Shown here: in pieces, positions 15,774-30,483 of the stretch | How positions within the stretch are numbered: position 1 is the stretch's first letter | Layout: each line of letters starts with the position of its first letter | Virus record (IMG/VR): IMGVR_UViG_3300046535_000434 | Coordinates: 1 to 30,483 of that record | DNA: 30,483 nucleotides | DNA from: a virus | Reading direction: 5' to 3' (one strand) | The notes under the pieces: model-generated | The model's input: the letters and a program-made list of their open reading frames with translations, nothing else | Databases searched by the model: none | What the model was told of the DNA's origin: nothing | Program-made: the position numbers and the translations under genes

Positions 15774-15811
15774 TCGCCCCTGTCCCCGGGACTGATCAGG
15801 TTCCCGGCGCC

Positions 15812-16189: not shown

Positions 16190-16242
16190 GATGTTGTTCC
16201 TACTCCCATACGGTTGGATACGGTTGCCGGATTGGGTGATGA

Positions 16243-16278: not shown

Positions 16279-16285
16279 CCACCGA

Positions 16286-17239: not shown

Positions 17240-17251
17240 TCGAGGTGTCCC

Positions 17252-18013: not shown

Positions 18014-18058
18014 TGTGACTCCCTGTGTCGGTTGTGATCACAGGGTAAGCCCGTCGCA

Positions 18059-18268: not shown

Positions 18269-18462
18269 CAGAGGTCACTAAACCTATGGACCAGCACTAA
18301 TAGGCTGCCTTGCACCGTCCCCCAGTGCTGCCCGCTACCCATGTCGATTAGGCGAACAAGATCCGCGCCCGGCGTGGCGGTTACCAAATAGAGCGCGGTT
18401 CCTGACCTGTATCTGACGACATCCCCAACACCGAACGCGACTAAAGTCTCCATACCCATCAT
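18268..18462 (-). CDS. Small beta-rich hypothetical protein (SH3-like)
   Basis: 64 aa from the first of three close ATGs (codons 1, 2 and 4); which is used is unclear, as the ribosome site is weak. The strand pattern, VGDVVRYRSGTALYLVTATPGADLVRLIDMGSGQHWGTVQGSLL, is that of a small SH3-like or tudor-like barrel. It is the first gene after the operator-like site at 18467-18491 and is not coupled to the MuF gene, which suggests separate regulation. No function can be assigned. Confidence 0.62.
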   Translation of the reverse strand: MMGMETLVAFGVGDVVRYRSGTALYLVTATPGADLVRLIDMGSGQHWGTVQGSLLVLVHRFSDL

Positions 18463-18466
18463 CCTA

Positions 18467-18491
18467 CACTAGGTCGGTTAGTGTCACACTA
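18467..18491. promoter_or_regulatory. Operator-like site in the head module (CACTA-N7-TAGTG plus overlapping palindrome)
   Basis: CACTA-GGTCGGT-TAGTG at 18467-18483 has the same 5-7-5 inverted layout as the operators in the two early promoters. It overlaps a 13-base palindrome TAGTGT-C-ACACTA at 18479-18491. It lies in the 21-base gap between the MuF gene and the next small gene. I see no -35 box at the right distance, so it may be an operator without a promoter. Confidence 0.5.
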
Positions 18492-20364
18492 GGAAATCGT
18501 CCGCCCCACGTTCCCGGCGTTCCGTCCCCGTTATGACCTGCTGACGGTACTGCTCCAACGTCGGCCGCCCGTGCTGATCCCACCATTGTTTGAGCTCGTC
18601 GCTGGCCCACTTCCGTGCCCGCGCCTCCGGCCCGGTGAACAGTTTCCGCGCGTCGATCTGCCTCGCCCCGTCCGCGGCGAACTTAGCGTTATGCGCCTCC
18701 GCAGCCTTCGACAACATATGACCCCGGGTGTCGTCCTCCGCGGCGTTCCACAACCGATGCACCTCGTCGGCGTAGTCGTTGCGGATCATCTCGTCGAGGG
18801 TCTTACCGCGCGCCCCGCTAGCTTTCAGCCGTTGGAATGCCTCCTGCTTTAGCTGTGTTTCGATGGGCACCCCCAGCACGTCGAACACAGCGGAGTGCGG
18901 GTCCTCCCCGGCGTCGATCCGCCGGCCCACTTCATCCCACTTGGATTGCATCGCGGCTTCCCGGGTGTCGGCCCGTTTCTGCCGTTGCGCCTCAACAGCC
19001 AGGCGGCGCCGCTCCACCCTCTGCGCCTCACGCATCGGCGCCTCATCGCGGCGGTCGAGCTCGGCACCGATCCGGTCAGCCCCCGGGTGGTCCTCTTCAT
19101 ACGCGGACCGCAACACCACCTCGAGGTCAGCATCGGTGGCGGCCCGGAGCTCCCGCGAGTTCCAATCCCTGATGTCGGCCGGCGGTGTCCGCGGGGTCCG
19201 CTTCGGTTTCGGCTGGACGAGCTCGGCGGGAACCTCCGGCACCCGCGGGGCCACCGGCCGCGGTGTTGGCGTACTGATCGACGTCCGATACCCGAGGTCC
19301 TTCCGCCCGTTCGCGTCCCGCCACATCTTGAAATCAGCCTGCGCCGCCCTCAACTTCCGGTTAGCCGCGGTCGCGGCCGGTGACCCCTTACCCCCCACCG
19401 TGCTGGCGGTCTGCGCCTTCCGTTTCAACGCCCTAATATGGCGCTCCCGGTAGCGTTGTTGCTGCCTGACCTTGTCCCCTTCGGGGTCCTCCGTGTCCGT
19501 CAGCGGCGGCGTGATCCCCGGCAAATACGCAACGGTCCGGTGCCGGCAGTTCGGGTGGAACAGGCCGGCGGCGGTGGCTTGTGCGAGCGTCCCCGACACG
19601 GTGTAGGACGTATCGGCGGCGGTGTACGTCCCGGCCTTCGTCGCACCGGTCAGGCTGAGGACCTTCCCCTCCCACGGACGGCATTTCTCGCACTCTTCCG
19701 GTGCGTCGCTGATCATCACGAGGTCCCGGCCTGCGTCGACGAGCCGATCCCGGTGCCCTTGCATGATGGCCTGTGACGCAGCGGTGCGGCCCACCATTTC
19801 CGCGTAGGACGTCATTGACCACGCACGGCCGCCACGGTCGACGAACCCCGTCACGCCACGGTCCGCCCACGTTTGCATTGCATCCCACGACGCTTCACGG
19901 CGGGTCATCGTCCCAGTGAGCATCCGCCCGGCGGTCTGCTGCACAACGTCCCGGTAGATCGCTTCCTGCTGCGACCTGATCACTAGCCCGGTGTCCCGTA
20001 ACTGTTGCCCGGCGGCGAGGGTGAGTGCTTGCACAGCGCGGGTGTCGACCCCACCGAACGCCCCACCGGTTGACCCGCCGAGGCGGGCGAGGTCCACCCC
20101 TGCGATCGACGCACCCCGGTTGTATCCGGCGAGCACAGCATCCGCGGCGGCGGCGGTCCCTGCCTTATCCAGCCCTTTGACGAGTTGCGCGGTCTGCGCC
20201 CGCAACCGTTGCACCGCGATTAGTTGTTGCTCCCGCCACGACGGGGTGTCGATCCCCTTCGTTACGGTCCGGCCGATCATGTCCAACAGTTGCAGTTCGG
20301 CGTCGGCGTAAACCTCCAGCAGCCCTTTGCCTAGGAGTCTCGCGTCATCCGGTGATACCGGCAT
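18484..20364 (-). CDS. MuF-like minor capsid protein with long C-terminal extension
   Basis: 626 aa, ATG start overlapping the portal gene by 20 bases. The N-terminal ~290 residues fit the phage minor capsid protein 2/MuF group: helices with LQLLDMIGRTVTKGIDTPSW, IYRDVVQQTAGRMLTG and MVGRTAASQAIMQGHRDRLV, then the paired Cys of EECEKCRPWEGKVLSL at about 225 and GLFHPNCRHRTVAYLPG at about 270. These Cys/His residues likely bind metal. Residues about 300-626 are a Lys/Arg/Ala-rich helical extension with coiled-coil segments and a final Trp-rich block (WASDELKQWWDQHGRPTLEQ). MuF proteins sit near the portal and may enter the host cell. The extension's function is unknown; a toxin-type activity is not shown. 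Confidence 0.85.
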   Translation of the reverse strand: MPVSPDDARLLGKGLLEVYADAELQLLDMIGRTVTKGIDTPSWREQQLIAVQRLRAQTAQLVKGLDKAGTAAAADAVLAGYNRGASIAGVDLARLGGSTGGAFGGVDTRAVQALTLAAGQQLRDTGLVIRSQQEAIYRDVVQQTAGRMLTGTMTRREASWDAMQTWADRGVTGFVDRGGRAWSMTSYAEMVGRTAASQAIMQGHRDRLVDAGRDLVMISDAPEECEKCRPWEGKVLSLTGATKAGTYTAADTSYTVSGTLAQATAAGLFHPNCRHRTVAYLPGITPPLTDTEDPEGDKVRQQQRYRERHIRALKRKAQTASTVGGKGSPAATAANRKLRAAQADFKMWRDANGRKDLGYRTSISTPTPRPVAPRVPEVPAELVQPKPKRTPRTPPADIRDWNSRELRAATDADLEVVLRSAYEEDHPGADRIGAELDRRDEAPMREAQRVERRRLAVEAQRQKRADTREAAMQSKWDEVGRRIDAGEDPHSAVFDVLGVPIETQLKQEAFQRLKASGARGKTLDEMIRNDYADEVHRLWNAAEDDTRGHMLSKAAEAHNAKFAADGARQIDARKLFTGPEARARKWASDELKQWWDQHGRPTLEQYRQQVITGTERRERGADDFLV

Positions 20365-21928
20365 CGGTGCCCCCGTCGAGCGGACCGGTGATCGTCGTCG
20401 CGTCGAGGTTGTTCCGGGCAGCGGTGCCCTCCCTGATCTGCCGAACTTCGTCCGCGACCTGCGCGTCCGTCCAATCCGGGTGACCCATCCTAACGATGGT
20501 CATATCCGACGCGGCCTCCGCAGCCCGCAACGCCTGCTGTGTCTGCGCCAACTGGATCGGGGTTTCCTGCGCACCCGGCGGGAACTCCAACGTCAGCAGG
20601 TCGTCGGCTACCGGGCCGAGCCGGGCGGCCTGATCCATCGCTAGCGCTTTACGCAGGATGGTTTCCAACCCCGGCCGTTCCTGGTTCAACACTGCATCCC
20701 GGGTCCGCATCGACCTAGAGTCTTTCGACAGGACACCGGTCGCGGTTTGCGCGTTCCCGTTCTCATCCTCCCCGAACGTATTAGCCGAGAACGACCCGGC
20801 CCGCAGGATCAACTCGGTAAGTTCCTGACACGTCGCCCGGTGCTCATCAACCCGGATATTGAACTGAACCTGACGGATCGGGTCCACCCCAGTGTCAGCA
20901 CCCAACGCCCGCGGCATCGCCAACGGTGTGATCAGGCGGCGGTCCATGTCGAACAGGGCACCCAACCCCGGACCCTTCCCCGACGTTTCCAGCAACCAAT
21001 CCGCGATGATCAGCCTTGAACGGCCGAGGTCGACGTCACGCATCCACGACGAATAGGCGTCGTCCAGTTTCGACAGCGACCCCTCGACGCCTTGGAAAAC
21101 AGAGCGGCCGAGGTCACGCCCGATCGGGTCGGTACGCCACAACCGCTGCGGGGTCCTGCCCGGGATATGGACGACGTCCAGGCCCGGGGTGCCTGTGTCG
21201 ATCAGCCCATCAGGGAACGCCTTAGCCAACTCGAGCAGGTCAGGGTGTGCGGTGAGTTCCATCCGCCGGCCCACCTTGTCCCTAGTGCCTTGGAACAATC
21301 CGTGGCGGATCACCCCAACACCTGTGGGGTCGAGCTCGTGGGACTCGAAGTGACGCCAAACCATGTTCCCGGTTTGGGTGGCCCCGAGTTCCCACCAGAA
21401 CGCCACGGACCGCAACCGGCCCCGGGAAAACACTGGCCACGCCCCGTCGTAGGCGACCTGTTCGAACACGCACCGGTCCGCACCGTTGGGGATCACGGCT
21501 TGCACGTACCGGCCACCGAACGCTGCGCCGAGCTCCACCCCCCCGGCCATCGACGTCAGTAGCCCGTCCCGGGTGTACTCATCAACCCGGGCCATCGTCG
21601 CAGCCGATGCGGAGGTGATCACCGGCGGTTCGGAGTACAGCAGTTCCGCCGTAGCAGCGCACAGATCGGACGCTAGGGGGACATGTAACCGGTCGTCCGC
21701 CTCACCCTGCACGATCGGGTTGCCCCAAATGATGCGGCCCATCACCCCCCGCAGACCGCCGGAGAATTGCGCCGGCCGGTTCAGTTGCTGCGCTATCGGG
21801 GTTGCCCCATACGCTGCGGTGAGTTGGTCAACGTCGCCGGAGTACCACGCGGACCACTTGTGGAACTCGGACAGCAACCCGGCTAGGGGTCGCGGCGGCC
21901 ACTCTTGGTCAACGATTGGCAGCGGCAT
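20345..21928 (-). CDS. Portal protein (SPP1 Gp6-like)
   Basis: 527 aa, ATG start behind GAGAGGAACC. The N-terminus (SEFHKWSAWYSGDVDQLTAAYG) carries the WYSGD hallmark of this portal family. The middle has LYSEPPVITSASAATMARVDEY, then GVELGAAFGGRYVQAVIPNG and the wing YSSWMRDVDLGRSRLIIADWLLE. The stem and crown region shows RVDEHRATCQELTELILRAG, TATGVLSKDSRSMRTRDAVLNQ and TILRKALAMDQAARLGP. Twelve copies form the ring for DNA entry and exit and bind the terminase. It directly follows the large terminase, the standard order. Confidence 0.93.
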   Translation of the reverse strand: MPLPIVDQEWPPRPLAGLLSEFHKWSAWYSGDVDQLTAAYGATPIAQQLNRPAQFSGGLRGVMGRIIWGNPIVQGEADDRLHVPLASDLCAATAELLYSEPPVITSASAATMARVDEYTRDGLLTSMAGGVELGAAFGGRYVQAVIPNGADRCVFEQVAYDGAWPVFSRGRLRSVAFWWELGATQTGNMVWRHFESHELDPTGVGVIRHGLFQGTRDKVGRRMELTAHPDLLELAKAFPDGLIDTGTPGLDVVHIPGRTPQRLWRTDPIGRDLGRSVFQGVEGSLSKLDDAYSSWMRDVDLGRSRLIIADWLLETSGKGPGLGALFDMDRRLITPLAMPRALGADTGVDPIRQVQFNIRVDEHRATCQELTELILRAGSFSANTFGEDENGNAQTATGVLSKDSRSMRTRDAVLNQERPGLETILRKALAMDQAARLGPVADDLLTLEFPPGAQETPIQLAQTQQALRAAEAASDMTIVRMGHPDWTDAQVADEVRQIREGTAARNNLDATTITGPLDGGTDAGITG

Positions 21929-21968
21929 CGGTGGTTCCTCTCGGCGGGTTGCGTCTTAGGGTATTGGG

Positions 21969-23210
21969 TCAGGCTGCGCGGACTAGTGAACGCCATGAAT
22001 GGTGCGTGGTTTGGATGGCGTACCGGCCACCGTCCAGCGAGTGATCCGCGGACTTAATCACCGCGTCTTTCCCTTTCGCGGCCTGATCGGGATCCCACGA
22101 ATAACCCGGGGCCTCATCAATGAACCCCGAACAGCGGTCAGCGACTTTCAGCCGGTCAGTCGACAGCATCGACGACATGAGCTGAATCCCTGGCAGCACC
22201 CGGTTATCAGCGTTCGTCAGCCTCCCGAACCGTTGCTCAATCATCTCCGCCTGCAAGGATGCCGCGGACGGGTCGACGATCACCCACTCGATCGGCGGTT
22301 CGTCCCGGGTGCCGTCCTTCGGGAGGTGCGGTTGGGCCATCCAATCCCCCAGGCCCTTGACTAGGCGTGTGTCCGTCCAACGCCCGTCGACCCTGCCGTC
22401 ATGCCGCCACTCGTCAACCAAATACAGCCTCGAGTCCAGCCCGAGCCCGAGGAGCAGGGCGGCGGTCGGGTTGTTCGTGCCGTAGTCCACCCCAACCCCG
22501 AGTAGGCGTTGCATCGTCGGGAGGGTGCCCCACGGTATGACCATGCGGATCGGGTCCCAGTCCGCGAACACAGCACCCTCCGCGGCGACCCACTCCCCCA
22601 AATACATGCGCCGGTACCACAGCCCGGTCAGTTCCCGCCGGTACCTGGCTTTGCGGGATTCACTGATCCCGGGGTTGTCGTCCATCGTGAAATGCCAGAT
22701 ATGCCACCCCGGCAGCAGACCTTTGCGGACACGGTCCATGTAGAGCCGTTTCAGCCAGTGCCCCGGGGTGTCCGGGTTCGTTGTGGCGAACAGGCGGGCC
22801 TCGTCGGACGACAACCGGCCGAGGAGGGTTTGAAACGCAACCTCGTCCATCAGGGTCAGTTCGTCGACGTACGCACCGGCGAGGGTGAGCCCACGGATAC
22901 GCTCCTCAGCTTTGGAGTCGCCGGTGCCGATCAGTTCGATTTCCCGGCCGAGGATGTGCGCGGTCGTCGACTTCCGCCGGAACTGCACACACTCGGGGTG
23001 CAGTTGTTTGAGCGGGGATAGGACGTTACGACCGATCGTGTCCAGGGTCAGCCCGAGCACCGCGATATGCCCGGCCGGTGCGGTCCGCACATACTCCAAG
23101 AACGCGATTAGGGACGCGATGGTTTTCCCGGATCGGATGGCCCCGTTCCATAGGTTCACGACCCCGTTCGCGTGACGGATCGACGCCCATTGTTTCGCGG
23201 ATAAACCCAT
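21969..23210 (-). CDS. Terminase large subunit
   Basis: 413 aa, ATG start overlapping the holin stop as TGATG. The ATPase domain has Walker A GAIRSGKT (23-30), Walker B AGAYVDE (111-117, D116/E117) and coupling motif FATTNPDTPGHW (141-152). The RNase H-like nuclease domain has D242 in VGVDYGTNNPTAALL, D313 in WVIVDPSAAS and the D389/D393 pair in SADHSLDGGRYA, together the metal-binding acidic residues. It pumps DNA into the procapsid and cuts the concatemer. All catalytic residues are present, so it should be active. Confidence 0.95.
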   Translation of the reverse strand: MGLSAKQWASIRHANGVVNLWNGAIRSGKTIASLIAFLEYVRTAPAGHIAVLGLTLDTIGRNVLSPLKQLHPECVQFRRKSTTAHILGREIELIGTGDSKAEERIRGLTLAGAYVDELTLMDEVAFQTLLGRLSSDEARLFATTNPDTPGHWLKRLYMDRVRKGLLPGWHIWHFTMDDNPGISESRKARYRRELTGLWYRRMYLGEWVAAEGAVFADWDPIRMVIPWGTLPTMQRLLGVGVDYGTNNPTAALLLGLGLDSRLYLVDEWRHDGRVDGRWTDTRLVKGLGDWMAQPHLPKDGTRDEPPIEWVIVDPSAASLQAEMIEQRFGRLTNADNRVLPGIQLMSSMLSTDRLKVADRCSGFIDEAPGYSWDPDQAAKGKDAVIKSADHSLDGGRYAIQTTHHSWRSLVRAA

Positions 23211-23416
23211 CAGGTTGCCCTAGGTGCGGCGGCGATTGATGTCAGCAGGCTAACGAGGGCGGCGGCGGCGGACACGTTCAGCAGTTCCGGCCAGTTCACC
23301 CCGGTGATCCCAACAGCGTTGGAACCGACGAGGGCAACGGCGGTTGCTGCGGCGGTCCTAATTGCCCGGTCGGCAGCGTCGACCCACATATCGGGGTTGG
23401 CATACCGTGATCGCAC
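23210..23416 (-). CDS. r1t-type holin
   Basis: 68 aa, GTG start. No clear Shine-Dalgarno precedes it; an ATG nine codons in (MWVDAADR) is an alternative. The sequence MWVDAADRAIRTAAATAVALVGS, then NWPELLNVSAAAALVSLLTSIAA, follows the r1t holin family closely: a helix, a short hinge with VGITGVNW and a second helix ending SLLTSIA. Two transmembrane helices are predicted. Such holins oligomerise in the membrane and trigger endolysin release. Unusually, it sits just before the large terminase, some 18 kb from the endolysin genes. Confidence 0.75.
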   Translation of the reverse strand: MRSRYANPDMWVDAADRAIRTAAATAVALVGSNAVGITGVNWPELLNVSAAAALVSLLTSIAAAPRAT

Positions 23417-23451
23417 ACGGTCAGTATGCGATGGTCACGCGCGGTTGCTAG

Positions 23452-23826
23452 TCACGGATGGCGCCGCTTGCTCGGTCGCTGCCCCGGCTGTGGTGTCGAC
23501 CAGGACTCCCGCGGGAACCGCAACCGGTGCCGGCGGCGTTGCTCCGCCTCGATCACGGCGGCGGCCCCGTACCGGCGGCCTTCCATCGCCACTGTGTGAT
23601 GCTCGACCAGTTCAGCATCCGTGGCGGCACGCAACGCCTGCTGTACGTCCCCGGTGATGGTGACCGGCCGAGGGGTTTCCATGTCGTCGAATGCTTCGAC
23701 GACCTCCCGTAACTGATGGACGTCGGTCGGCCAACCATTCGCGTTCAGTTCGGCAGCTGCGCGGGCGAGCTCGGCGGCCACGATGTCATCACCACGGGTC
23801 GACGCCACCCGGCGCGCCGGATCCAT
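23452..23826 (-). CDS. Hypothetical helical protein with basic C-terminus
   Basis: 124 aa from an ATG that overlaps the upstream stop as TGATG; an earlier start would lie in the neighbouring gene. Residues 15-60 are helical (DIVAAELARAAAELNANGWPTDVHQLREVVEAFDDM), and about 62-100 a second helical block with GDVQQALRAATDAELVEHH. The last 25 residues are strongly basic (QRRRHRLRFPRESWSTPQPG, then RPSKRRHP), which suggests nucleic-acid contact. It has no recognised domain. It is part of the coupled small-gene run between the terminase genes. Confidence 0.62.
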   Translation of the reverse strand: MDPARRVASTRGDDIVAAELARAAAELNANGWPTDVHQLREVVEAFDDMETPRPVTITGDVQQALRAATDAELVEHHTVAMEGRRYGAAAVIEAEQRRRHRLRFPRESWSTPQPGQRPSKRRHP

Positions 23827-24131
23827 CACGACTCCGTCCGGCACTGATCGAGGAACACCACAGCCTGCGCGTGAGCACCCACAATCAACGTCGGGTCAGC
23901 CAACGGGGTGATCCCCGGCCCCGACATCCGCTTAAGGGTTTCCGCGATCTGCGCGAACCGTTCCGCGGCCTCACCACACGCACCGGCCCCCGGCTTAAGG
24001 TGTTCCGTCTGCCCGGTGACCAGGAACGTGGCGGCGATTCCGATCAGCAGCCCGACGACGGCGCCACCGATCACCCCCAGCATGTCCCGTTTCGCGTGCG
24101 GGCCTTTCGTTTCTGCCATGCGGTTTATCAT
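23826..24131 (-). CDS. Single-pass membrane protein
   Basis: 101 aa; the first ATG overlaps the upstream stop as ATGA, and a second ATG four codons on is also possible. A cytoplasmic-type basic N-terminus (ETKGPHAKRDM) precedes one hydrophobic helix at about 17-38 (LGVIGGAVVGLLIGIAATFLV). The remaining 60 residues are soluble and helical with two cysteines (GACGEAAERFAQIAETLKRMSGPG and AHAQAVVFLDQCRTES). The topology suggests an N-in/C-out protein whose domain faces the cell wall. No family recognised. It lies two genes upstream of the r1t-type holin and could modulate it, but this is speculative. Confidence 0.62.
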   Translation of the reverse strand: MINRMAETKGPHAKRDMLGVIGGAVVGLLIGIAATFLVTGQTEHLKPGAGACGEAAERFAQIAETLKRMSGPGITPLADPTLIVGAHAQAVVFLDQCRTES

Positions 24132-24319
24132 TCGCCCATTCCTTCGGATCGTGGGTCATCCGACCACGGTTTGATTACCGGGGCCGGTTTTGGTCGGGGG
24201 GTTGCGAGTGCTGCGACTGCGAGCTCGGCCAGTGTGTACGCCAGCCGGAGAGGTATGTCGTGCCCCTGTCTGGCCCATACGGCGATGATGTCCCCGATGG
24301 CCTTGTCAGGGTCAGCCAT
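24128..24319 (-). CDS. Small hypothetical protein
   Basis: 63 aa from the ATG that overlaps the upstream stop as TGATG (an upstream start four codons earlier lies inside the neighbour). The N-terminal 42 residues are helical and moderately hydrophobic: DPDKAIGDIIAVWARQGHD, then LRLAYTLAELAVAALATP. The tail is Pro-rich and charged (RPKPAPVIKPWSDDPRSEG). It is not clearly a membrane protein. No known family. The frame is supported by tight coupling to both neighbours. Confidence 0.55.
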   Translation of the reverse strand: MADPDKAIGDIIAVWARQGHDIPLRLAYTLAELAVAALATPRPKPAPVIKPWSDDPRSEGMGE

Positions 24320-24666
24320 CACACGTCCCACAGGTGAGCCATGAGCAGATGAGCCCGGACCATGCTGGCTAGGTCTGTAGCCGGCGGATGGCAGAACTCC
24401 AGATCAAAGGTTTGCGACCAGTCGCATAGCCAGCAGGACACCCGAGTGACCCCGTACCGGGTCCTAACGCGGATCGGTGGGAACCGGTGCGGCGACCGGT
24501 GCGCGAGCGGCAACGGGCACGGGATAGCTGCGGTGCTGTGTCGGTACCCGCATCGCTGGCGGTCGGACATCGGCCGGACCTGTTCAGCGTCCAACGGGAG
24601 CACGTCCCGCGGGTCCTCATCCGGGTGCCACTGCACCGGCAACCGGAGCGCATCCCTGATTCTCAT
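24319..24666 (-). CDS. Putative C2H2-type zinc finger protein
   Basis: 115 aa, ATG start overlapping the previous stop as ATGA. Residues 78-111 fit a C2H2 pattern: C78-x2-C81 in VSCWLCDWSQTFDL, then H106-x4-H111 in MVRAHLLMAHLWDV. A second cluster, C39, H43, C50, H56 and H60 (RCGYRHSTAAIPCPLPLAH), may bind another metal. Single C2H2 domains are common in small actinophage regulators and structural adaptors. Whether it binds DNA, RNA or protein is unknown. It is coupled to a ribbon-helix-helix gene. Confidence 0.6.
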   Translation of the reverse strand: MRIRDALRLPVQWHPDEDPRDVLPLDAEQVRPMSDRQRCGYRHSTAAIPCPLPLAHRSPHRFPPIRVRTRYGVTRVSCWLCDWSQTFDLEFCHPPATDLASMVRAHLLMAHLWDV

Positions 24667-24845
24667 AGCTTGATCCCCCTAGGTGATGGTGCCGGCATGT
24701 GTTGCAGCCCGTAGGCGAGGGCCATCCGCGCGACGTCCGACGTTGACAGGTGGAACTCGGCGGCCTTCCGGTCGATCGCCTCACGACCAGCCGTCGTGAC
24801 ACGGATCGACACTCTGGCGTCCCGGGCCTTCGTTTGGTCAGGCAT
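24663..24845 (-). CDS. Ribbon-helix-helix DNA-binding protein
   Basis: 60 aa, ATG start overlapping the upstream stop by eight bases (ATGCCTGA). Residues about 11-17 (RVSIRVT) form the beta ribbon, about 19-31 (GREAIDRKAAEFH) the first helix and about 35-48 (STSDVARMALAYGL) the second, the classic CopG/Arc-type pattern. Such proteins dimerise and insert the ribbon in the major groove, usually as repressors. It could regulate this operon or help form a DNA-packaging complex. The target is not known. Confidence 0.72.
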   Translation of the reverse strand: MPDQTKARDARVSIRVTTAGREAIDRKAAEFHLSTSDVARMALAYGLQHMPAPSPRGIKL

Positions 24846-24984
24846 CGCCCCGCCAAACCCGGAGCCGTTCCCCCCGGTCAGCGATCAGCGCGGCGCCGAG
24901 CCGGCCGGACAGCGGTGACCCGCCGGCCACGTAGGCGCCGAGCACGATCAGCCACGACCCCACGAACTCCCGGACCCTGGTCAT
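24838..24984 (-). CDS. 48-aa small protein with one hydrophobic helix
   Basis: ATG start overlapping the upstream stop as ATGA, and TGA overlapping the ribbon-helix-helix start. The sequence begins MTRVREFVGSWLIVLGAYVAGG, so residues about 7-22 could span a membrane; a Gly/Leu-rich helix and basic end (RGERLRVWRGDA) follow. The frame is intact and coupled on both sides, which argues it is a real gene despite its length. Similar 40-50-aa membrane peptides are common in actinophage operons. No function can be given. Confidence 0.55.
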   Translation of the reverse strand: MTRVREFVGSWLIVLGAYVAGGSPLSGRLGAALIADRGERLRVWRGDA

Positions 24985-25154
24985 CGTTCACCGTTGGCGA
25001 TGGCCAGCAGAGCCCGGTTGGTGCCCTCGATCGCGGCGTAATCCCGCGGGGTGAGTTGGTCGGCGTACTTCTCCATGTGGTCGGCTAGCCGGTCCGCGGT
25101 GACCCTCGCGGGGTGACGGGCGGCGAGTCGGTCCTGTTCGGTTAGCGGTTCCAT
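24981..25154 (-). CDS. Small hypothetical helical protein
   Basis: 57 aa from an ATG that shares one base with the stop of the secreted-protein gene (TGATG). It is fully helical and charged: EPLTEQDRLAARHPARVTADRLADHM, then TPRDYAAIEGTNRALLAIANGER. It lacks Cys, membrane segment and known motif. It is the first gene after the secreted protein, so the two are translationally coupled, but nothing indicates a shared function. Confidence 0.58.
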   Translation of the reverse strand: MEPLTEQDRLAARHPARVTADRLADHMEKYADQLTPRDYAAIEGTNRALLAIANGER

Positions 25155-25552
25155 CAGAACAGCCTGCAACCGGCGGAGTAGTAAACCCCGAACTGACTCA
25201 ACCGGTCATTAAGACCAGCCGGGAAATTGATGATGTAGTTGGACGAATTGACGCAGTAGTTATAGGTGTTCCCCGCCAGGGACCGCAGCCTCACGGCATT
25301 GCAGTGCCGGGTCGTCGACGACGCCACATACGACACCGACGACGAGTACAGCGGTTGCGTTGAGGGCCACGAATACCCGGCCGAGTCGCAATCCCACGGC
25401 GTGTATTTCCGCTCGAACAGGGCACCCTGCCCCGGCCAGTAGTGCTCCCATATGGATAGTTCACCGGACGCTGCGGCGGCGTTGGGTGCGGCCATGATCG
25501 TCAGGCCGGCGGCCAGTGCGAGCACAGCGAGGATTGCTTTGATGCGGTTCAT
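25154..25552 (-). CDS. Secreted four-cysteine protein, resembles peptidase inhibitor I36 / crystallin-like family
   Basis: 132 aa starting at an ATG behind GGAAGAGGCACC; an in-frame extension to 25624 has no good ribosome site. Residues 1-28 are a signal peptide: basic start (MNRIK), hydrophobic core AILAVLALAAGLTIMAAP, and a likely cleavage after NAAAA. The mature part has four Cys (54, 84, 100, 129), so two disulfides are possible, with many Tyr/Ser/Asn. LNDRLSQFGVYYSAGC resembles the conserved 'NDRxSS' end of Streptomyces-type I36 inhibitor domains. It sits between the terminase genes, where no secreted protein is expected. A role outside the cell (host-surface, protease or competing-phage target) is inferred; homology is weak by eye. 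Confidence 0.72.
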   Translation of the reverse strand: MNRIKAILAVLALAAGLTIMAAPNAAAASGELSIWEHYWPGQGALFERKYTPWDCDSAGYSWPSTQPLYSSSVSYVASSTTRHCNAVRLRSLAGNTYNYCVNSSNYIINFPAGLNDRLSQFGVYYSAGCRLF

Positions 25553-25586
25553 GGTGCCTCTTCCGTTGGTCGGGCTGATTGTGTGT

Positions 25587-25605
25587 GCGCCGGTACCCTC
25601 GGCGC
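25587..25605 (-). other. Short hairpin in the leader of the secreted-protein gene
   Basis: GCGCCG / CGGCGC form a 6-bp stem around a seven-base loop, about 35 bases ahead of the chosen start. It may influence translation of the secreted protein. The 108-base gap around it holds no other gene that I can support. Confidence 0.3.
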
Positions 25606-25660
25606 TCCGCGTTGCTTTCCCCATCGCCCCGTTAGGTGGTCGACCGCGGCCCGTACGTTT

Positions 25661-25843
25661 CTAGCGGTGGAACCCTGCGGCCTTGATCGCGCCCACAGCC
25701 TCCGGCAGTTCGTAACGGTCGATGAACACCCCCAGGATGCGGGTCAAACGGTCAGTGTCCGTGTCGTCGAGGCGGGCCTGTTCCGCGGCCCAACGCTGCC
25801 ACCCCGGTGCGTGCTTGGCCCGGTGAATCAGTGTCTCCGGCAT
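25661..25843 (-). CDS. Small hypothetical protein after the small terminase gene
   Basis: 60 aa from the ATG behind GGAAGGGGTTGGGG. A TTG start eleven codons upstream is weaker and would overlap the GTACC repeats. The product is helical: PETLIHRAKHAPGWQRWAAEQARL, then TDRLTRILGVFIDRYELPEAVG and a basic end AAGFHR. No domain is recognised. It is the only gene separated from both neighbours by clear gaps, each holding structured DNA, so its expression may be set independently. Confidence 0.6.
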   Translation of the reverse strand: MPETLIHRAKHAPGWQRWAAEQARLDDTDTDRLTRILGVFIDRYELPEAVGAIKAAGFHR

Positions 25844-25867
25844 GATCCCCAACCCCTTCCAAATCGT

Positions 25868-25905
25868 GTACCCCAAATGTACCCCACGGGTACCAAATGG
25901 TACCC
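25868..25905. repeat. Four GTACC repeats spaced one helical turn apart, with a 7-bp hairpin
   Basis: GTAC occurs at 25868, 25879, 25890 and 25900 on the plus strand, spacings 11, 11 and 10 bases. The units read like two copies of a ~21-base repeat. The last two form a perfect inverted repeat GGGTACC-AAAT-GGTACCC (25888-25905). The element lies just after the small terminase stop. The phasing puts all sites on one face of the helix, as for a protein-binding array. Confidence 0.65.
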
Positions 25906-25909
25906 ACGA

Positions 25910-26392
25910 TTATTCGGGTGAATCCACCGGCGACACAGTCATCGGGTCGTCAGGATCCGCCCCCACCGGAGCCGTCCGCAACAACTGATCCAACAAGGAC
26001 ACGACGGGGCCGAGCCCCTGCCCCTCGCTGTAAACGTCGACGTACCTAGCTTGCTGCGCCAGGATGCGGGTCAGCGAGAGGACGTGCTTCGACAGTTGCC
26101 CCGCGGTCAGGTTCCCCCGGGCTTGGTCGTCCCCGATACGGCGCATCACCGAACGCGCGGCCAGCTCGAGCCGGTCCATGTGGATTCGTGCGAGCTCGTC
26201 CGCGGCCGGTTTCTCCCGGCGTGCCAGCGCGGCCTTGATCGCTTCGCCCACAGCACCGCGGGATTTGTACCCGATTTCCCGGGCTATCTCGTCGTACGTC
26301 CAGCCGAGTACGCGCAGCTCGAGCGCCCGCGCTTGGCGTGCTGCGCCGGTCAGCCGGTGCGGGTTCGTTGGGAGTGCCACGCCTCGAGCCAT
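25910..26392 (-). CDS. Putative terminase small subunit (helix-turn-helix)
   Basis: 160 aa; the chosen ATG has AAAGGAATCAGGACG before it, while a longer frame runs out of phase through upstream genes. Residues about 25-56 form a helix-turn-helix (ELRVLGWTYDEIAREIGYKS, then GAVGEAIKAALARRE). A helical middle (LARIHMDRLELAARSVMRRIG, then LSKHVLSLTRILAQQARYVD) could drive ring oligomerisation, and the C-terminus is acidic (GADPDDPMTVSPVDSPE), suited to contact with the large subunit. Small terminases recognise cos or pac DNA. The gene lies 2.7 kb upstream of the large subunit rather than next to it, so the call is moderately sure; a generic regulator is the alternative. Confidence 0.68.
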   Translation of the reverse strand: MARGVALPTNPHRLTGAARQARALELRVLGWTYDEIAREIGYKSRGAVGEAIKAALARREKPAADELARIHMDRLELAARSVMRRIGDDQARGNLTAGQLSKHVLSLTRILAQQARYVDVYSEGQGLGPVVSLLDQLLRTAPVGADPDDPMTVSPVDSPE

Positions 26393-26427
26393 CGTCCTGA
26401 TTCCTTTACGTCCTGTGCCGGTTAGGT

Positions 26428-26664
26428 TCAGGGTAGGTCGTGGAGCATGTCCCAGAGCCGGTCGGTTTGTGCGCGTCGTTCGGCGTCGAGGTCGTCGAGT
26501 TTGGATCGGTCCGCGGCGGCTTGTACGTCGTCGAGCCATCGTCGGTGTGCGCGGCGTGCTGCGCGTCGGTCCGCGGTGAGTGCCCGGTATGCCCAGATGT
26601 TCGCGGCGACGATCGGTGCGAGTGCGGTGCCGGTGAGGATGATGGTTGCGGCGGTGTCGCTCAC
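26428..26664 (-). CDS. Membrane-anchored helical protein
   Basis: 78 aa with a GTG start overlapping the upstream stop as GTGA; the much longer frame upstream is out of phase with the real neighbour gene. Residues about 5-25 (AATIILTGTALAPIVAANIWAY) form one hydrophobic helix, and the rest is a highly charged helix with coiled-coil pattern (ADRRAARRAHRRWLDDVQAA, then SKLDDLDAERRAQTDRLW). It is the last gene of the coupled small-gene chain before the small terminase. No family is recognised. Confidence 0.65.
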   Translation of the reverse strand: MSDTAATIILTGTALAPIVAANIWAYRALTADRRAARRAHRRWLDDVQAAADRSKLDDLDAERRAQTDRLWDMLHDLP

Positions 26665-26900
26665 TTCCCACCACCCGGGGCGGCGGGATTGAACGGAATC
26701 GGCCCGGTCTTTGTCCCGATCTGGACGACACCACCCGGCGCGACCGAGACCGTGGCGTCCAACAGTGCACCGAACGCAGACCCCGCCAACTGCTCCCGCT
26801 CCGGTGTCGCCGTCGCGCAGGGGAAGCAGACCCACGATCCACCCGGCCCGTATGGGCGCAGCTCCCGGTCAGTCGGGCCGCAGTAATGGCAGGCGCTCAT
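26661..26900 (-). CDS. Small zinc-ribbon-like protein
   Basis: 79 aa, ATG start overlapping a micro-ORF stop as ATGA. Two Cys pairs, C4-x2-C7 (ACHYCGPTDREL) and C25-x2-C28 (WVCFPCATATPE), form a zinc ribbon. The rest is a hydrophobic, Gly/Pro-rich tail (AGSAFGALLDATVSVAPGG). Small zinc-ribbon proteins are frequent in actinophage early operons; they may bind nucleic acid or host proteins. No specific role can be given. Confidence 0.65.
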   Translation of the reverse strand: MSACHYCGPTDRELRPYGPGGSWVCFPCATATPEREQLAGSAFGALLDATVSVAPGGVVQIGTKTGPIPFNPAAPGGGK

Positions 26901-26962
26901 CGGTCAACCACCCAGCGTTTGTCAGGCATTCGGCTGTCCTCCGGGGCGGGGCGGGCGGTCAC
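26897..26962 (-). CDS. 21-codon micro-ORF linking two coupled genes
   Basis: A GTG overlaps the upstream stop as GTGA and opens VTARPAPEDSRMPDKRWVVD plus Arg; its TGA overlaps the zinc-ribbon ATG as ATGA. Its neighbours obey the same rule, so this frame closes what would otherwise be the only break in the coupled chain. It may be a peptide gene or only a ribosome bridge. There is no separate Shine-Dalgarno. Confidence 0.4.
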   Translation of the reverse strand: MTARPAPEDSRMPDKRWVVDR

Positions 26963-27201
26963 CACGAGAAGCTCATTCCGCCAGCCTCAGCTACCTCACG
27001 GCCATTGTTCCCAGCGTTCGCCACGTCGCACGGCCACAGGTGCTGGATACCGTCGTCCCAACACACAGAACAGATCCACGAGTGCGGCGAACCGAGCCCA
27101 TCCCAGTGCGGCTGATGGAACCTCGCGGGCAACGCCATCCGCTCGGCGTAGGTCATCTCCGACACAGACGGACCAGACGGAGGGGCGGGGCGGGAGGTCA
27201 C
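26959..27201 (-). CDS. Small Cys/His protein, possible zinc-binding
   Basis: 80 aa with a GTG start overlapping the upstream stop as GTGA. After a Pro/Ser-rich lead (TSRPAPPSGPSVSEMTYAERM), a possible metal site appears: H32, H40, C44-x2-C47 and C58 in FHQPHWDGLGSPHSWICSVC, then HLWPCDVANAG. The C-terminal 20 residues are Gly/Ala-rich and unstructured-looking. A zinc-binding adapter or regulator is possible. The frame begins further upstream in the raw sequence, but the overlap rule and composition favour this GTG. Confidence 0.6.
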   Translation of the reverse strand: MTSRPAPPSGPSVSEMTYAERMALPARFHQPHWDGLGSPHSWICSVCWDDGIQHLWPCDVANAGNNGREVAEAGGMSFSW

Positions 27202-27395
27202 GATGTGCCGCCGGTGGTTTGCAACTCGCGGTCGTTCGCGGTGACTAGTGCGGTTCGGTGGGTCCATCCGGCTGTGCTGATGGCTTGTGCCAGTAACTCC
27301 GGGGTGCATTGGTTTCCCACGGCCCGGCAGTCCGCGATGACACGGCGGATCGTGCCGGCCAGGGTTTCCGGGGATTTCCTGTTCGTCGAGCTCAC
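27198..27395 (-). CDS. Small hypothetical protein
   Basis: 65 aa with a GTG start that overlaps the HNH stop as GTGA; the longer open frame extending to 27965 is an out-of-phase shadow of the HNH gene. The protein is compact and helical (SPETLAGTIRRVIADCRAVG, then TPELLAQAISTAGWTHRTAL), with a polar end (NDRELQTTGGTS). A short helix pair of this kind may be a DNA-binding or protein-binding domain, but I recognise no family. Confidence 0.6.
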   Translation of the reverse strand: MSSTNRKSPETLAGTIRRVIADCRAVGNQCTPELLAQAISTAGWTHRTALVTANDRELQTTGGTS

Positions 27396-27811
27396 TGCAC
27401 TGTCCTTTCGTAGAGTCCGAGCCTGCGGGCGATCTGTTCCGCTTCCCCGCAGGACGTGGCGGCGTACCGGGGTCCGATCGGGAGCCACGTCCCGCCGGCG
27501 GTGGGTAGTTGCCACCCGTTGAGGGTGAGCACCGGTGTTGTGAATGCTTGTTGGAGGGTTGGGACGCACCAACCGGTGACGTCCCGCGCTTCGGTGCGTT
27601 GCGACTCGGTGTGCCGGTGATGGAAGCCGCACGCGCTGATCAGGTTCCTGGGGTCGTTCACCATCGGGTCCGTGGTGCCGCCCATCCCCCGCCGGTACCG
27701 GTGATGCACGTCCTGGTAGCGGTTGCCACACCACACGCACACACCCCCGTCGCGGTGGATCACGATGCGGCGGGCAGCGGCCAGGCCTCCGCGGCGGTCG
27801 GCGGCGGTCAC
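27392..27811 (-). CDS. HNH endonuclease
   Basis: 139 aa with a GTG start overlapping the upstream stop as GTGA; an earlier ATG at 27892 would lie inside the neighbour. The HNH core has C25-x2-C28 (GVCVWCGN), H36-H37 (YQDVHHRYRRGMGG), N56 (DPRNLISAC), C61, and H64/H65/H67 (CGFHHRHTES). The pattern is intact, so it is likely an active metal-dependent nuclease with a structural zinc. In cos phages HNH proteins assist the terminase in cutting cos DNA. It lies 1 kb upstream of the putative small terminase, consistent with that. A free-standing homing endonuclease is the alternative. Confidence 0.85.
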   Translation of the reverse strand: MTAADRRGGLAAARRIVIHRDGGVCVWCGNRYQDVHHRYRRGMGGTTDPMVNDPRNLISACGFHHRHTESQRTEARDVTGWCVPTLQQAFTTPVLTLNGWQLPTAGGTWLPIGPRYAATSCGEAEQIARRLGLYERTVQ

Positions 27812-28002
27812 GGTAGAGCCTCGCAGTCGTCCATACACGGCCCGTAGTGCATGACACCCGGCCGGAACTCGCACGTTGTGAGCGGCGCCCATGGTGCCGG
27901 CATCGGCTTAACGTTGGGGTCGCCCCGTAACGGGTGGTCGTCTGCGGGGTCGAACATCGGCCCATCGTGGGCGGCGTCGGACTCGTCGTAGTCGTAGCTC
28001 AT
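27808..28002 (-). CDS. Small acidic hypothetical protein
   Basis: 64 aa from the ATG that overlaps the upstream micro-gene stop (ATGA). The N-terminus is very acidic with alternating Tyr/Asp (SYDYDESDAAHDGPMFDPADD), and the C-terminus carries a Pro-rich stretch (KPMPAPWAPL) and two close Cys (YGPCMDDCEALP). It might mimic DNA charge or bind a host protein, but this is speculation. It is coupled to the HNH gene. Confidence 0.55.
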   Translation of the reverse strand: MSYDYDESDAAHDGPMFDPADDHPLRGDPNVKPMPAPWAPLTTCEFRPGVMHYGPCMDDCEALP

Positions 28003-28112
28003 TCGAATACCTCCCCACAGTCGGTGCATTGAAAGTCGTCCGGGCCGATCTGCCTCATCCTGCGATGCTCACATTCCGGCAGGTCCGTTTCGTCGTCGTC
28101 GAGCTCGCTCAT
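27999..28112 (-). CDS. 37-aa zinc-knuckle-like protein
   Basis: A small intact frame with ATG overlapping the upstream stop as ATGA and TGA overlapping the next ATG. The sequence runs MSELDDDETDLPECEHRRMR, then QIGPDDFQCTDCGEVFE. C14, H16, C30 and C33 (CEH...CTDC) form a possible zinc site of the Zn-ribbon kind. Genes this short are easily missed, but coupling on both sides supports it. Confidence 0.55.
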   Translation of the reverse strand: MSELDDDETDLPECEHRRMRQIGPDDFQCTDCGEVFE

Positions 28113-28468
28113 CGGGTGCCAGCCAGTTCGGCCCGGAGCTCATCCCGCAGGCTGACGAGCTCAGCGATACGCGCGGACCGGTCGTAGTCCCAACCGTGCG
28201 CCTTCTCAGCCCTGCGGAGCGCGGTTAGCTCGGTGTTCAGCCGGCTAGCGGCGAGTGTCGCGCACCCGCAGGTGTTCCGGTCCTGTTCCTGTTCGACCGC
28301 GGCGTCGAGCACGGCCAGTAGCCGGAGCGGGGTCAGGTCACGGACGGATTCGGCGCGCCCGTTTATGCGGACGTCGTAGTCGTGGCCGTCCTCGATGGAC
28401 ACCCGGAATACGGCTACGGCTTTGCCCATGAGGTCCCGCTGACAGGCCGGTGTGTGTTGGATTCGCAT
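28109..28468 (-). CDS. Hypothetical protein of the second promoter's first position
   Basis: 119 aa; the ATG lies behind AAGAAGGAGACACA, and this start, not the longer upstream frame, is used because it sits at the end of the promoter leader. The product has a beta-rich front (GKAVAVFRVSIEDGHDYDVRI), helices (LRLLAVLDAAVEQEQD) and a Cys pair TCGCATLAAS, then a charged C-terminal coiled coil (ALRRAEKAHGWDYDRSARIA, then VSLRDELRAELAG). No family recognised. As the first gene behind P2, it may be a main product of that unit. Confidence 0.68.
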   Translation of the reverse strand: MRIQHTPACQRDLMGKAVAVFRVSIEDGHDYDVRINGRAESVRDLTPLRLLAVLDAAVEQEQDRNTCGCATLAASRLNTELTALRRAEKAHGWDYDRSARIAELVSLRDELRAELAGTR

Positions 28469-28526
28469 TGTGTCTCCTTCTTGGTCGGTAACACTCACAC
28501 TGGTCTGGCTAGTGCGGGGTGTCAAG
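28469..28526 (-). promoter_or_regulatory. Promoter P2 with operator, copy of P1
   Basis: Minus strand: TTGACA (28520-28525), 17-base spacer, CAGTGT (28497-28502). The spacer and -10 hold CACTA-N7-CAGTG (28498-28514), an imperfect inverted repeat. A 22-base leader stretch (28474-28495) with the AAGAAGGAG ribosome site is identical to that of P1. The RusA gene's TGA stop lies inside the -35 box. Confidence 0.72.
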
Positions 28527-29058
28527 GGTGGATAGCCCATCGAACCCACGTCCCCGGCACCGGCCCCCGATACGCCAACACATCGAACCGGCAACACTGC
28601 CCGTCATCAGCCCACACGTGCCCGAGGGTGAGGACGTCGAACAGTGCCCGTAGGCATTTGTCCTTGTCGGGTTTCACGGTGTGCCAGGGGAGGTGAACGC
28701 ACCCCGTGCGGCAGGACGGGAACGGGTCGCCCATCGCCTCATGGATCAGTTGCCCCTCCTCCCCGGCGGTGATAGCCCGCTCGGCTCGGCGGATCGTCGC
28801 CTTGTCCTCACCCCGCAGCGGGAACACGAACCGCACCGATAGGACCGCCGGGACATGCTGCGCGAACAGCGGCCCCGCGGCTGTGAGCCCGGGGTAAGCG
28901 TCACGGATCGCCAGCGCGGCGGCGGCCCGCCACGCTTTCAGGGCCGGCCCGTTGTCGTCGATCACGGACGCCCGAGGTTTCCCATCCTTGTAGAACACCC
29001 GCCCGGGTTTCTTGGATCCCTGCGGCACCGGCACCCCAGGGATGAACAGGTCCGTCAC
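28522..29058 (-). CDS. RusA-like Holliday junction resolvase
   Basis: 178 aa with a GTG start overlapping the upstream stop as GTGA. The RusA core is clear: N-terminal strand FIPGVPVPQGSKKP, then the acidic motif VKPDKDKCLRALFDVLTLGH followed by VWADDGQC. D131, D133 and D152 correspond to the three metal-binding Asp of E. coli RusA. The usual DxDN is DKDK here. An insert at about 84-128 contains a Cys pair (SCRTGC), not usual in the family. The enzyme resolves branched DNA before packaging. The extra insert may bind metal or a partner. Confidence 0.88.
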   Translation of the reverse strand: MTDLFIPGVPVPQGSKKPGRVFYKDGKPRASVIDDNGPALKAWRAAAALAIRDAYPGLTAAGPLFAQHVPAVLSVRFVFPLRGEDKATIRRAERAITAGEEGQLIHEAMGDPFPSCRTGCVHLPWHTVKPDKDKCLRALFDVLTLGHVWADDGQCCRFDVLAYRGPVPGTWVRWAIHP

Positions 29059-29237
29059 GGTGCGACCCGGGTCCGGTCGAGGTGCGCCGGTATGTGCCGG
29101 ACCGGTTCCCCGGTGTACGTGTTAACGCACTCAGCACCCGCAGGGCGCTCACAGAACGGGCAGGCCCGGGTGAGTGCCTCCCGGCGTTGCTCCGCGAACA
29201 GCAGGCGCCCGTAATGGTCCGGTCGGTTCTCACCCAT
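29055..29237 (-). CDS. Small zinc-finger-like protein
   Basis: 60 aa, ATG start overlapping the upstream stop by eight bases. The core CPFCERPAGAECVNTYTGEP, then VRHIPAHLDRTR fits a phage-type finger: C-x2-C (ACPFC), a third Cys eight residues on and His residues near the end (RHIPAH). Such small fingers in actinophage early operons probably bind DNA or host proteins. It is coupled to the RusA gene downstream. Function is inferred only from the motif. Confidence 0.65.
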   Translation of the reverse strand: MGENRPDHYGRLLFAEQRREALTRACPFCERPAGAECVNTYTGEPVRHIPAHLDRTRVAP

Positions 29238-29433
29238 CGGACGGCCTGACCAGGGTCACGCGCACCCATTCGTCATCCGGCCAATCGTCCCACCGGATCA
29301 GTTCCCACGCTCGGTCCCCGGGGTGGTTCGGGTGGTACTTCCCGTTGAGGGTTGGCCAGGTGTCGCGGTCCATGTGGGACATCAGGGTGCCCGGGCGGCC
29401 GGCGATGGCCACCCGGAGCCGCCCGTCAGGCAT
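29230..29433 (-). CDS. Small hypothetical protein rich in Trp and Asp
   Basis: 67 aa, ATG start overlapping the upstream stop by eight bases (ATGCCTGA). A beta-type opening (DGRLRVAIAGRPGTLMSH) is followed by a Trp-rich section (DTWPTLNGKYHPNHPGD, AWELIRWDDWPDDEWVRVTL). It is short, acidic and soluble with no known motif. Conserved packing supports it as a gene. Confidence 0.58.
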   Translation of the reverse strand: MPDGRLRVAIAGRPGTLMSHMDRDTWPTLNGKYHPNHPGDRAWELIRWDDWPDDEWVRVTLVRPSDG

Positions 29434-29728
29434 GGCCGTCGAGTGTGCGGTTCACGGCGTAGGCGAGGTGCGCGGCGTTCGCCGCACCGCCTAACGCTTC
29501 GATCAGGTTCCACAGGGATTCGATGCGGAGCCATGCGGGTTCACCGGTGCGTGCGTTGGGGTTGGCGGCCCGGAGCGCGACCCATTCGAGTTCAACCGTG
29601 GAACGCATGTCGAGGACGGCGGTGCGGATCGTCCAGGGGTCGAACGCGGCGGGGACGTCGTCCTGCGGTCCGAACCGGTCCTGATCGGTGTCGAACGCAT
29701 CAGCGGCGATGGTGTTGTGGTCGGTCAT
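29426..29728 (-). CDS. Hypothetical protein, first gene behind P1
   Basis: 100 aa, ATG behind AAGAAGGAGCCACACC. The front is acidic (AADAFDTDQDRFGPQDDV), followed by a helical core (IRTAVLDMRSTVELEWVALR, then AWLRIESLWNLIEALGGAAN) and a final helix AHLAYAVNRTLDGHA. The pattern suggests a compact helical bundle. It is the first gene of the P1 transcript and so likely well expressed. Many early phage proteins of this size inhibit or redirect host machinery, but no evidence for that is in the sequence. Confidence 0.68.
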   Translation of the reverse strand: MTDHNTIAADAFDTDQDRFGPQDDVPAAFDPWTIRTAVLDMRSTVELEWVALRAANPNARTGEPAWLRIESLWNLIEALGGAANAAHLAYAVNRTLDGHA

Positions 29729-29788
29729 GGTGTGGCTCCTTCTTGGTCGGTAACACTTACACTAATCGCGCTAGTGCGGGTTGTCAAG
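29729..29788 (-). promoter_or_regulatory. Promoter P1 with operator
   Basis: Minus strand: TTGACA (29782-29787), 17-base spacer, TAGTGT (29759-29764). A perfect inverted repeat CACTA-N7-TAGTG (29760-29776) covers the end of the spacer and the -10 box, so a bound protein would block RNA polymerase. The leader (29736-29757) is identical to P2 over 22 bases. The TGA stop of the upstream winged-helix gene lies inside the -35 box. Confidence 0.78.
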
Positions 29789-30335
29789 GGGAGCGGTCCG
29801 GGCACTTCCACGGTTTCATGCCATGTGCACAGACCGGTGCCGGCATCGGCACCTCCGCGCGAAGCGAAGCGAGCAGCGGATCAATCGGAGCAAATCTGAT
29901 CTTCGCCTCTAAGGACGGTTTCTCTGATGGTTCTAAGGACGGTTTGTCGGCCACCAGTGACCGGCCTAAACCCCGATCCTGTCCCCCCTGATTGTCGATC
30001 CTGTCCCCCCTAACCTCTGTAGGCCGGTCAGGCTGTCCCCCCTGATTGTGGATAACTCCGGGTATGTCCCATACCACTGGGCGGCGGTTCGCGGGTACGT
30101 GCGCAACCATCTGCTGGTCCCCGCGGATGATCACCCCGGCCGATTCCATCTCGACCAGGCGGCGCCTCACGGTGCGTTCGCTCACCCGCGCGTACCGGGC
30201 GAGCGTCGCTTGTCCCGGCCATGATGCGGTGCCGTCATGGTGCGCATGGTTGGCCAGGCCGAGCAGGATCAGGGTTGCCTCGGCGTCCGTCGTCGGTGCG
30301 TAGCGGAGTGCCCACGCCATAGCTTCGATGCTCAC
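29784..30335 (-). CDS. Winged-helix DNA-binding protein, replication-initiator type
   Basis: 183 aa with a GTG start that overlaps a micro-ORF stop as GTGA. The N-terminal ~75 residues are a winged helix: SIEAMAWALRYAPTTDAEAT, a helix LILLGLANHAHHDG, then ASWPGQATLARYARVSERTVRR and the wing VEMESAGVIIRGDQ. This resembles N-terminal domains of actinophage replication initiators and Rep-type proteins. Residues 96-123 contain NQGGQPD and NQGGQD repeats, and 131-143 KPSLEPSEKPSLE; the C-terminus has CAHGMKPWKCP, a possible metal site. The repeats come from direct DNA repeats and may mark an origin within the gene, as in lambda O. Confidence 0.75.
   Translation of the reverse strand: MSIEAMAWALRYAPTTDAEATLILLGLANHAHHDGTASWPGQATLARYARVSERTVRRRLVEMESAGVIIRGDQQMVAHVPANRRPVVWDIPGVIHNQGGQPDRPTEVRGDRIDNQGGQDRGLGRSLVADKPSLEPSEKPSLEAKIRFAPIDPLLASLRAEVPMPAPVCAHGMKPWKCPDRSP
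29908..29945. repeat. Two copies of a 14-bp repeat with 24-bp period
   Basis: TCTAAGGACGGTTT occurs at 29908-29921 and 29932-29945. It is AT-richer than the neighbourhood and encodes KPSLE twice. Next to the G-tract repeats it could serve as the unwinding region of an origin. Confidence 0.6.
29979..30043. repeat. Three copies of CTGTCCCCCCT inside the winged-helix gene
   Basis: Exact 11-base copies start at 29979, 30001 and 30033 on the plus strand (AGGGGGGACAG on the coding strand), with start-to-start distances of 22 and 32 bases. Flanks extend the similarity: GATCCTGTCCCCCC twice and CCCCTGATTGT twice. They may be iterons bound by the encoded protein. Confidence 0.68.
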
Positions 30336-30370
30336 AGGGGGTCGCCTGCGCTACGATTGTTCTTGTTCAC
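30332..30370 (-). CDS. 12-codon micro-ORF with good ribosome site ahead of the winged-helix gene
   Basis: GTG preceded by GAAGGGCAATAC opens VNKNNRSAGDPL, and its TGA overlaps the GTG of the winged-helix gene. That gene has no Shine-Dalgarno of its own, so translation of this peptide could deliver the ribosomes. A leader-peptide role is inferred. Confidence 0.42.
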   Translation of the reverse strand: MNKNNRSAGDPL

Positions 30371-30462
30371 GTATTGCCCTTCGATAGTTGGGATGCCCGT
30401 TCACGCGGCCCTCTCGTTCTCTCGTCGGTGCGGTTTCGTTCCCTTGGTCGGGTGGTGAACAT
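30367..30462 (-). CDS. 31-codon basic micro-ORF at the window edge
   Basis: ATG opens MFTTRPRERNRTDERTRG, then PRERASQLSKGNT and a TGA that overlaps the next micro-ORF GTG. Ten of 31 residues are Arg or Lys. The ribosome site is weak. It continues the same coupling pattern, so it may be the first of three linked frames, or part of a 5' leader. Confidence 0.35.
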   Translation of the reverse strand: MFTTRPRERNRTDERTRGPRERASQLSKGNT

Positions 30463-30483
30463 CGTAGGGCCGGTTACCTGTTG

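Follow-up and report, generated by a model that had tools for sequence, protein, structure and literature searches.

The genome of an uncultured actinobacterial phage carries a short palindrome, CACTA-N7-TAGTG, that overlaps the -10 hexamers of two promoters and recurs at corresponding positions in a related phage, where a further copy overlaps the promoter of a gene for a small helix-turn-helix (HTH) protein. We read the palindrome as the operator of an autoregulated Cro-like repressor that would turn down three co-directional promoters; we infer both the identity of the repressor and the repression, and place the probability of this reading at roughly 60%. The DNA analyzed, called the window here, is a virus record of 30,483 bp (IMGVR_UViG_3300046535_000434) whose genes are nearly all encoded by the minus strand, and no DNA relative of it was found among sequenced phages.

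The two promoters lie in cassettes A (29731-29790) and B (28469-28528), which form a direct repeat of 60 nt on the minus strand with 88% identity. A sequence-only reading of the window had described each as TTGACA, a 17-base spacer, TAGTGT or CAGTGT, and an identical 22-base leader, and all of these elements are present to the base. In cassette A the -35 hexamer is at 29787-29782, the -10 hexamer TAGTGT at 29764-29759 and the leader, which includes a AAGAAGGAG Shine-Dalgarno sequence, at 29757-29736; in cassette B, TTGACA is at 28525-28520, CAGTGT (a poor hexamer) at 28502-28497 and the leader at 28495-28474. The inverted repeat noted over the -10 region is likewise as described, perfect at 29760-29776 in A (29759-29777 in its 19-nt form) and one base short of perfect at 28498-28514 in B, where it reads CACTA-N7-CAGTG. 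The gene for a replication-initiation (O-like) protein (29784-30335, minus strand) ends in the -35 hexamer of A, and that for a RusA-like resolvase (28522-29058, minus strand) ends in the -35 hexamer of B. As both upstream genes have their TGA stop inside TTGACA, the palindromes are not part of the coding sequence upstream, and constraint from coding neighbors, a possible source of conservation raised with the original description, does not account for them. The initiator gene also contains two 21-nt repeats (95% identical; ACAATCAGGGGGGACAG in the coding orientation) at 29979-29999 and 30033-30053, a possible replication origin by analogy with the origin iterons in lambda O, and a tandem 17-nt repeat, TCTAAGGACGGTTT(C/G)TC, is found near its end at 29908-29924 and 29932-29948.

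Relatives were sought by protein-guided scans of IMG/VR. The closest, G001 (IMGVR_UViG_3300046736_000044; 39,290 bp), is complete as judged by its 127-nt terminal repeat, carries essentially all of its genes on one strand and is colinear with the window at about 77% nucleotide identity (about 71-80% in most blocks), with a terminase that is 86% identical over its alignment. A second relative, G002 (39,835 bp), is more distant, with 77% terminase identity. Prophage relatives identified by terminase, at 38-50% identity in actinobacterial genomes and lower elsewhere, were too distant and were set aside, and no comparable promoter was found after the initiator gene in contigs L009 and L010. In G001 the palindrome is perfect at 17977, 22737 and 25963, with a one-mismatch copy at 36928. 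Judged by position, the last three of these are orthologous to A, B and a further window site, C, and a weaker site, D, is also shared at a matching junction; the fifth, P, at 17977, falls within 8-9 kb that are absent from the window. The genes that follow the promoters are orthologous as well. A 100-aa open reading frame (ORF) of unassigned function after promoter A (29426-29728, minus strand) has a 48% identical orthologue that also follows site A in G001, and a 119-aa ORF of unassigned function after promoter B (28109-28468, minus strand) has a 52% identical one, which in G001 is preceded by an additional 44-aa ORF. Across A, B and C, the 5-nt arms agree between window and G001 at 28/30 positions and the 7-nt spacers at 8/21; with 6-nt arms the comparison is 33/36 against 8/21 (Fisher p = 2.6e-5). 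Arms that are kept while spacers drift are expected of a protein-bound operator.

The palindrome is in clear excess over chance. On the window coding strand, perfect CACTA-N7-TAGTG occurs twice against an expectation of 0.003, and three times against 0.026 when up to one departure is allowed. Units of the form TTG..-N-CACTA-N7-YAGTGT number 2 in the window and 0 in 1000 dinucleotide shuffles, while complete units of promoter and palindrome number 3 in G001 and again 0 in shuffles. The hexamer ACACTA occurs five times on both strands of the window, four of them within operator sites. NrdR boxes, ACAC(A/T)A...T(A/T)GTGT, resemble the palindrome in their half sites but have these separated by 4 nt.

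A search of the genome for CACTA-N7-TAGTG had been recommended; two sites within the window had been overlooked. Operator C (18467-18483) is a perfect copy with 6-nt ACACTA arms and no TTGACA, located between a minor-capsid ORF (18484-20364) and an ORF at 18268-18462; the operator is kept in G001 although the next gene differs, the window having an extra 64-aa ORF there. Candidate operator D (5135-5153), GGACTA-N7-TAGCGT, lies just ahead of an ORF at 4918-5121 and was found with a half-site matrix as an orthologous weak pair, with 12/12 arm and 3/7 spacer positions kept in G001 (10884-10902). Its 12.3 bits rank next below A, B and C in the window, and next below those three and P in G001; as the best background score in G002 is just as high, D is treated as no more than a candidate. 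Both C and D are near late-gene starts and have no clear promoter or recognizable -35 element. The pair A/B, which had been treated as a unit, is thus not the whole set: at least two more sites lie in the window, and a fifth, P, in the region missing from it.

At P, A and B the elements follow one order: TTGACA (TTGCAC at P), 5 nt, CACTA, 7 nt and YAGTGT, with a 17-nt spacer between -35 and -10, such that the right arm of the palindrome is the -10 hexamer. A blind search for -35/-10 patterns on the G001 coding strand returned P, A and B only, each with the operator. Over the whole coding strand of the window, A is the sole match to a sigma-A-like pattern. A stricter consensus scanner, applied to 10500-30483, reported 1 site against 2.2 expected by chance and flagged neither A nor B, since their -10 hexamers match TATAAT at just 3/6 (A) and 2/6 (B) positions. 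These scans agree with the earlier remark that the rest of the window has almost no promoter-like sequence. From B to the late genes there is no further sigma-A-like promoter, so the A/B pair may govern most downstream genes, as had been proposed; P is probably the main early promoter.

The coincidence of the right arm with the -10 hexamer, and the constant distance from -35 to arm at A, B and P, would also fit a simpler situation in which no regulator is involved and CACTA-N7-TAGTG is merely the spacer and -10 that a strong kind of phage promoter favors. We regard this as improbable: the left arm, for which no function in sigma-A promoters is known, is conserved no less strictly than the right one, both arms are kept at C and D though a -35 is lacking there, and a promoter is not expected to show dyad symmetry. 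An operator bound by a protein is the reading that we carry forward.

The leader has a different history from the operator. The sequence AGTGTTACCGACCAAGAAGGAG, identical at 29757-29736 and 28495-28474, is longer than any other exact repeat found on the window coding strand. The identity of its two copies and its absence from G001 could be taken to mean that the cassette pair is a recent duplication devoid of regulatory meaning. G001, however, has the operator and -35 element at both junctions with different leaders, so these are older than the copying of the leader; the duplication-only reading is thereby largely refuted, and we give it very little credence. The best match to the 22-nt leader in G001 is 16/22, site B of G001 has no comparable leader, and viral contigs searched with the leader gave no match. 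Since it is absent from G001, the leader probably spread from one cassette to the other once the lineages of window and G001 had parted, the operator and -35 element being older. It is not conserved in G001 and resembles a recent, local copy more than a component of the switch. In G001 the ATG follows the -10 hexamer by 6 nt at P and by 7 nt at B, which suggests that transcripts from these two promoters are leaderless.

The likely regulator of the operator, judging from gene position and predicted fold, is an 81-aa Cro/CI-type protein of G001. P overlaps the promoter of its ORF (18001-18246), which opens the early block and has its ATG 6 nt past the -10 hexamer; unassigned ORFs, an ERF recombinase, a methyltransferase and a putative processivity factor follow in the block. 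The protein matches PHROG 3642, annotated "HTH DNA binding protein", while its HTH match is under the Pfam gathering score and a sequence search of the PDB gave no match. Its model (pLDDT 87) is predicted to adopt a lambda-repressor-like domain (XRE fold) and matches TP901-1 CI-MOR, CylR2, P22 c2 and lambda CI, with VIA Z values of 8.5 to TP901-1 CI-MOR chain B and about 7 to P22 c2 and lambda CI; matches in BFVD are Cro/HTH proteins of actinophages. As in the XRE circuits of TP901-1 CI-MOR, lambda CI and P22 c2, a palindromic operator lies over the regulated promoters including the candidate's own, and lambda-class operators are about 17 bp long. Unlike lambda-class circuits, a single autoregulated gene would be at work, with no divergent repressor/cro pair.

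The stretch with the HTH gene is missing from the window, and the link between operator and HTH protein is read from one relative, G001. No homologue of the HTH protein of G001 or G002 was detectable among isolates, and in an ERF alignment of 80 mostly distant loci, PHROG 3642 was present in 3/20 records tested. At the same place in G002, the first early gene encodes an HTH protein 27% identical to that of G001. Palindrome and half-site matrix scans of G002 gave no strong copy of the CACTA-N7-TAGTG operator, and in this genome the HTH gene and one other junction instead share a different promoter element, GTAACATAGTT. In a comparison resting on these two genomes, a divergent HTH protein with a different element is as expected under joint divergence of the operator and the first-gene HTH protein. 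At G002 1223, 28638 and 36392 (contigs L023 and L024), GTAACATAGTT-N3-ATG occurs at two junctions and TTGACA-16-TAATCT-N6-ATG at the third, all with a leaderless look.

Another protein might bind the operator in place of the HTH protein. A 60-aa NikA-like protein, probably of the ribbon-helix-helix type, is encoded within the window itself (24663-24845, minus strand), is 86% identical in G001 and was not detected in G002, where the operator is missing too. Its gene, however, adjoins no operator, whereas the promoter of the HTH gene carries one, and its family match is weak (E 2e-4, under the cut-off); we consider it an unlikely binder.

A host transcription factor may also be envisaged, with the palindrome serving as the phage's sensor of host state. 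Scans of viral contigs with the promoter-operator pattern returned G001, three probable chance matches (L025, L121 and L123) and an unrelated phage, G024 (60% GC), which also has a duplicated TTGACA-N5-CACTA-N7-TAGTGT cassette, as a common host factor could explain. There the palindrome occurs in just 2 of several related GATTTGACA...GGCTA promoters and looks incidental, and we hold a host factor to be quite improbable. G024 was also set aside as evidence, since no protein that it encodes matches the HTH protein or the NikA-like one and the palindrome is missing from most of its related promoters. The cassette pair of this 62.7-kb phage, TTGACAGGATTCACTAGCTAGGCTAGTGT, is 239 bp apart (L122 2528-2544 and 2767-2783; G024 25831 and 26070), and its larger GATTTGACA...GGCTA promoter family shares GACGAACCGACG(A)AGGAG-like leaders.

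Returning to the Cro-like repressor, we propose that A and B are phage promoters of the sigma-A type and that the palindrome lying over each of them, (A)CACTA-N7-TAGTG(T), 17-19 bp long, would be bound by a dimer of the small Cro/CI-type product of the first early-operon gene. By keeping RNA polymerase from P, its own promoter, and from A and B, the HTH protein would switch down the early and middle operons as it accumulates. C and D may act as weak sites or as roadblocks to transcription. The earlier suggestion that a single repressor could shut both cassettes holds insofar as a shared operator overlaps both -10 hexamers and is kept at the corresponding G001 junctions; we infer that the regulator represses, that repression follows from binding by the HTH protein and that it sets timing, and the labels "early" and "repressor" are used in this sense. 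Neither tyrosine (PF00589) nor serine (PF00239) recombinases were found in the window (G000), the complete G001 or G002, and no divergent repressor/early promoter pair was found in G001, where essentially all genes are on one strand. With no integrase in three genomes, lysogenic immunity is unsupported and a Cro-like timing role is preferred. A bolder and rather doubtful extension is that, in a lytic-type lineage without lysogeny genes, one autoregulated Cro-like protein could act as a genome-wide timer, the palindrome serving as operator at P, A and B and as a promoterless roadblock between late genes at C and D, a palindromic analogue of stoperators.

This kind of system is already known; the novelty lies in the particular operator, in how many sites it has and where they are placed, and in the candidate regulator. 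The closest working analogue is the repressor of phage BPs, gp33, which acts at five loci (four promoters) through an operator between the -35 and -10 of the early promoter (PMC4557955). Both systems have few dispersed loci and a short palindrome between -35 and -10 (A and B in the window; P, A and B in G001). BPs has an integration-dependent switch, divergent Prep/PR promoters, a 12-bp palindrome, CGACATATGTCG, as half site and experimentally proven binding (PMC4557955), whereas the present lineage has no integrase, one direction of transcription, another operator sequence and predicted binding only. The stoperators of Cluster A (L5, TipsytheTRex) and Cluster CA are more numerous, with about 20-26 copies of an asymmetric 13-bp site bound by a monomeric repressor (PMC9283540, PMC5721134). 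They share with our sites a placement in short intergenic gaps, some of them promoterless in the late operon, but the sites here are palindromic and number 4-5 per genome. TGTCAAG was rejected as an L5-type stoperator, having just 3 occurrences and being the reverse complement of CTTGACA.

Similar dyads are described in phages without a recognized lysogeny module. In the parts of these accounts consulted, Cluster O has 17-bp repeats, TGTTCGG-N3-CCGAACA, with invariant arms, a variable center and predicted leaderless SigA promoters (PMC4351075), Microbacterium cluster EG has 18-bp intergenic inverted repeats (PMC7302621), and the repeats occur in 8 to 34 copies with no candidate binder named there (PMC4351075, PMC7302621). 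As far as those parts describe them, these resemble our sites in being intergenic dyads of 17-18 bp, and in Cluster O also in their conserved arms and variable center; they differ in that the arms here are other ones, copies are fewer, and the sites overlap the -10, one of them over an HTH gene promoter. Cluster K SAS/ESAS elements have a 13-bp consensus in many copies at start sites (PMC3203893). Cassettes A and B are alike in having a repeated leader at the ribosome-binding site with an inverted repeat just upstream, and unlike in that the window has just two copies of the leader and G001 has none.

Operators of uncultured actinophages are seldom paired with a candidate regulator, and here synteny and two-genome footprinting make such a pairing testable. 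The result gives a likely -10/-35 and operator definition for the lineage of the window and G001, and the comparison of G001 with G002 hints that the operator sequence changes in step with the HTH protein of the first early gene. Two further features of these genomes were observed. An r1t-holin-like gene (PF16945) at 23210-23416 lies immediately upstream of the large terminase gene, an unusual position for a holin, and a 284-aa ORF of G001 (23122-23976; L022 3122-3976) contains a long AARVAAGVAAWDAA-type repeat.
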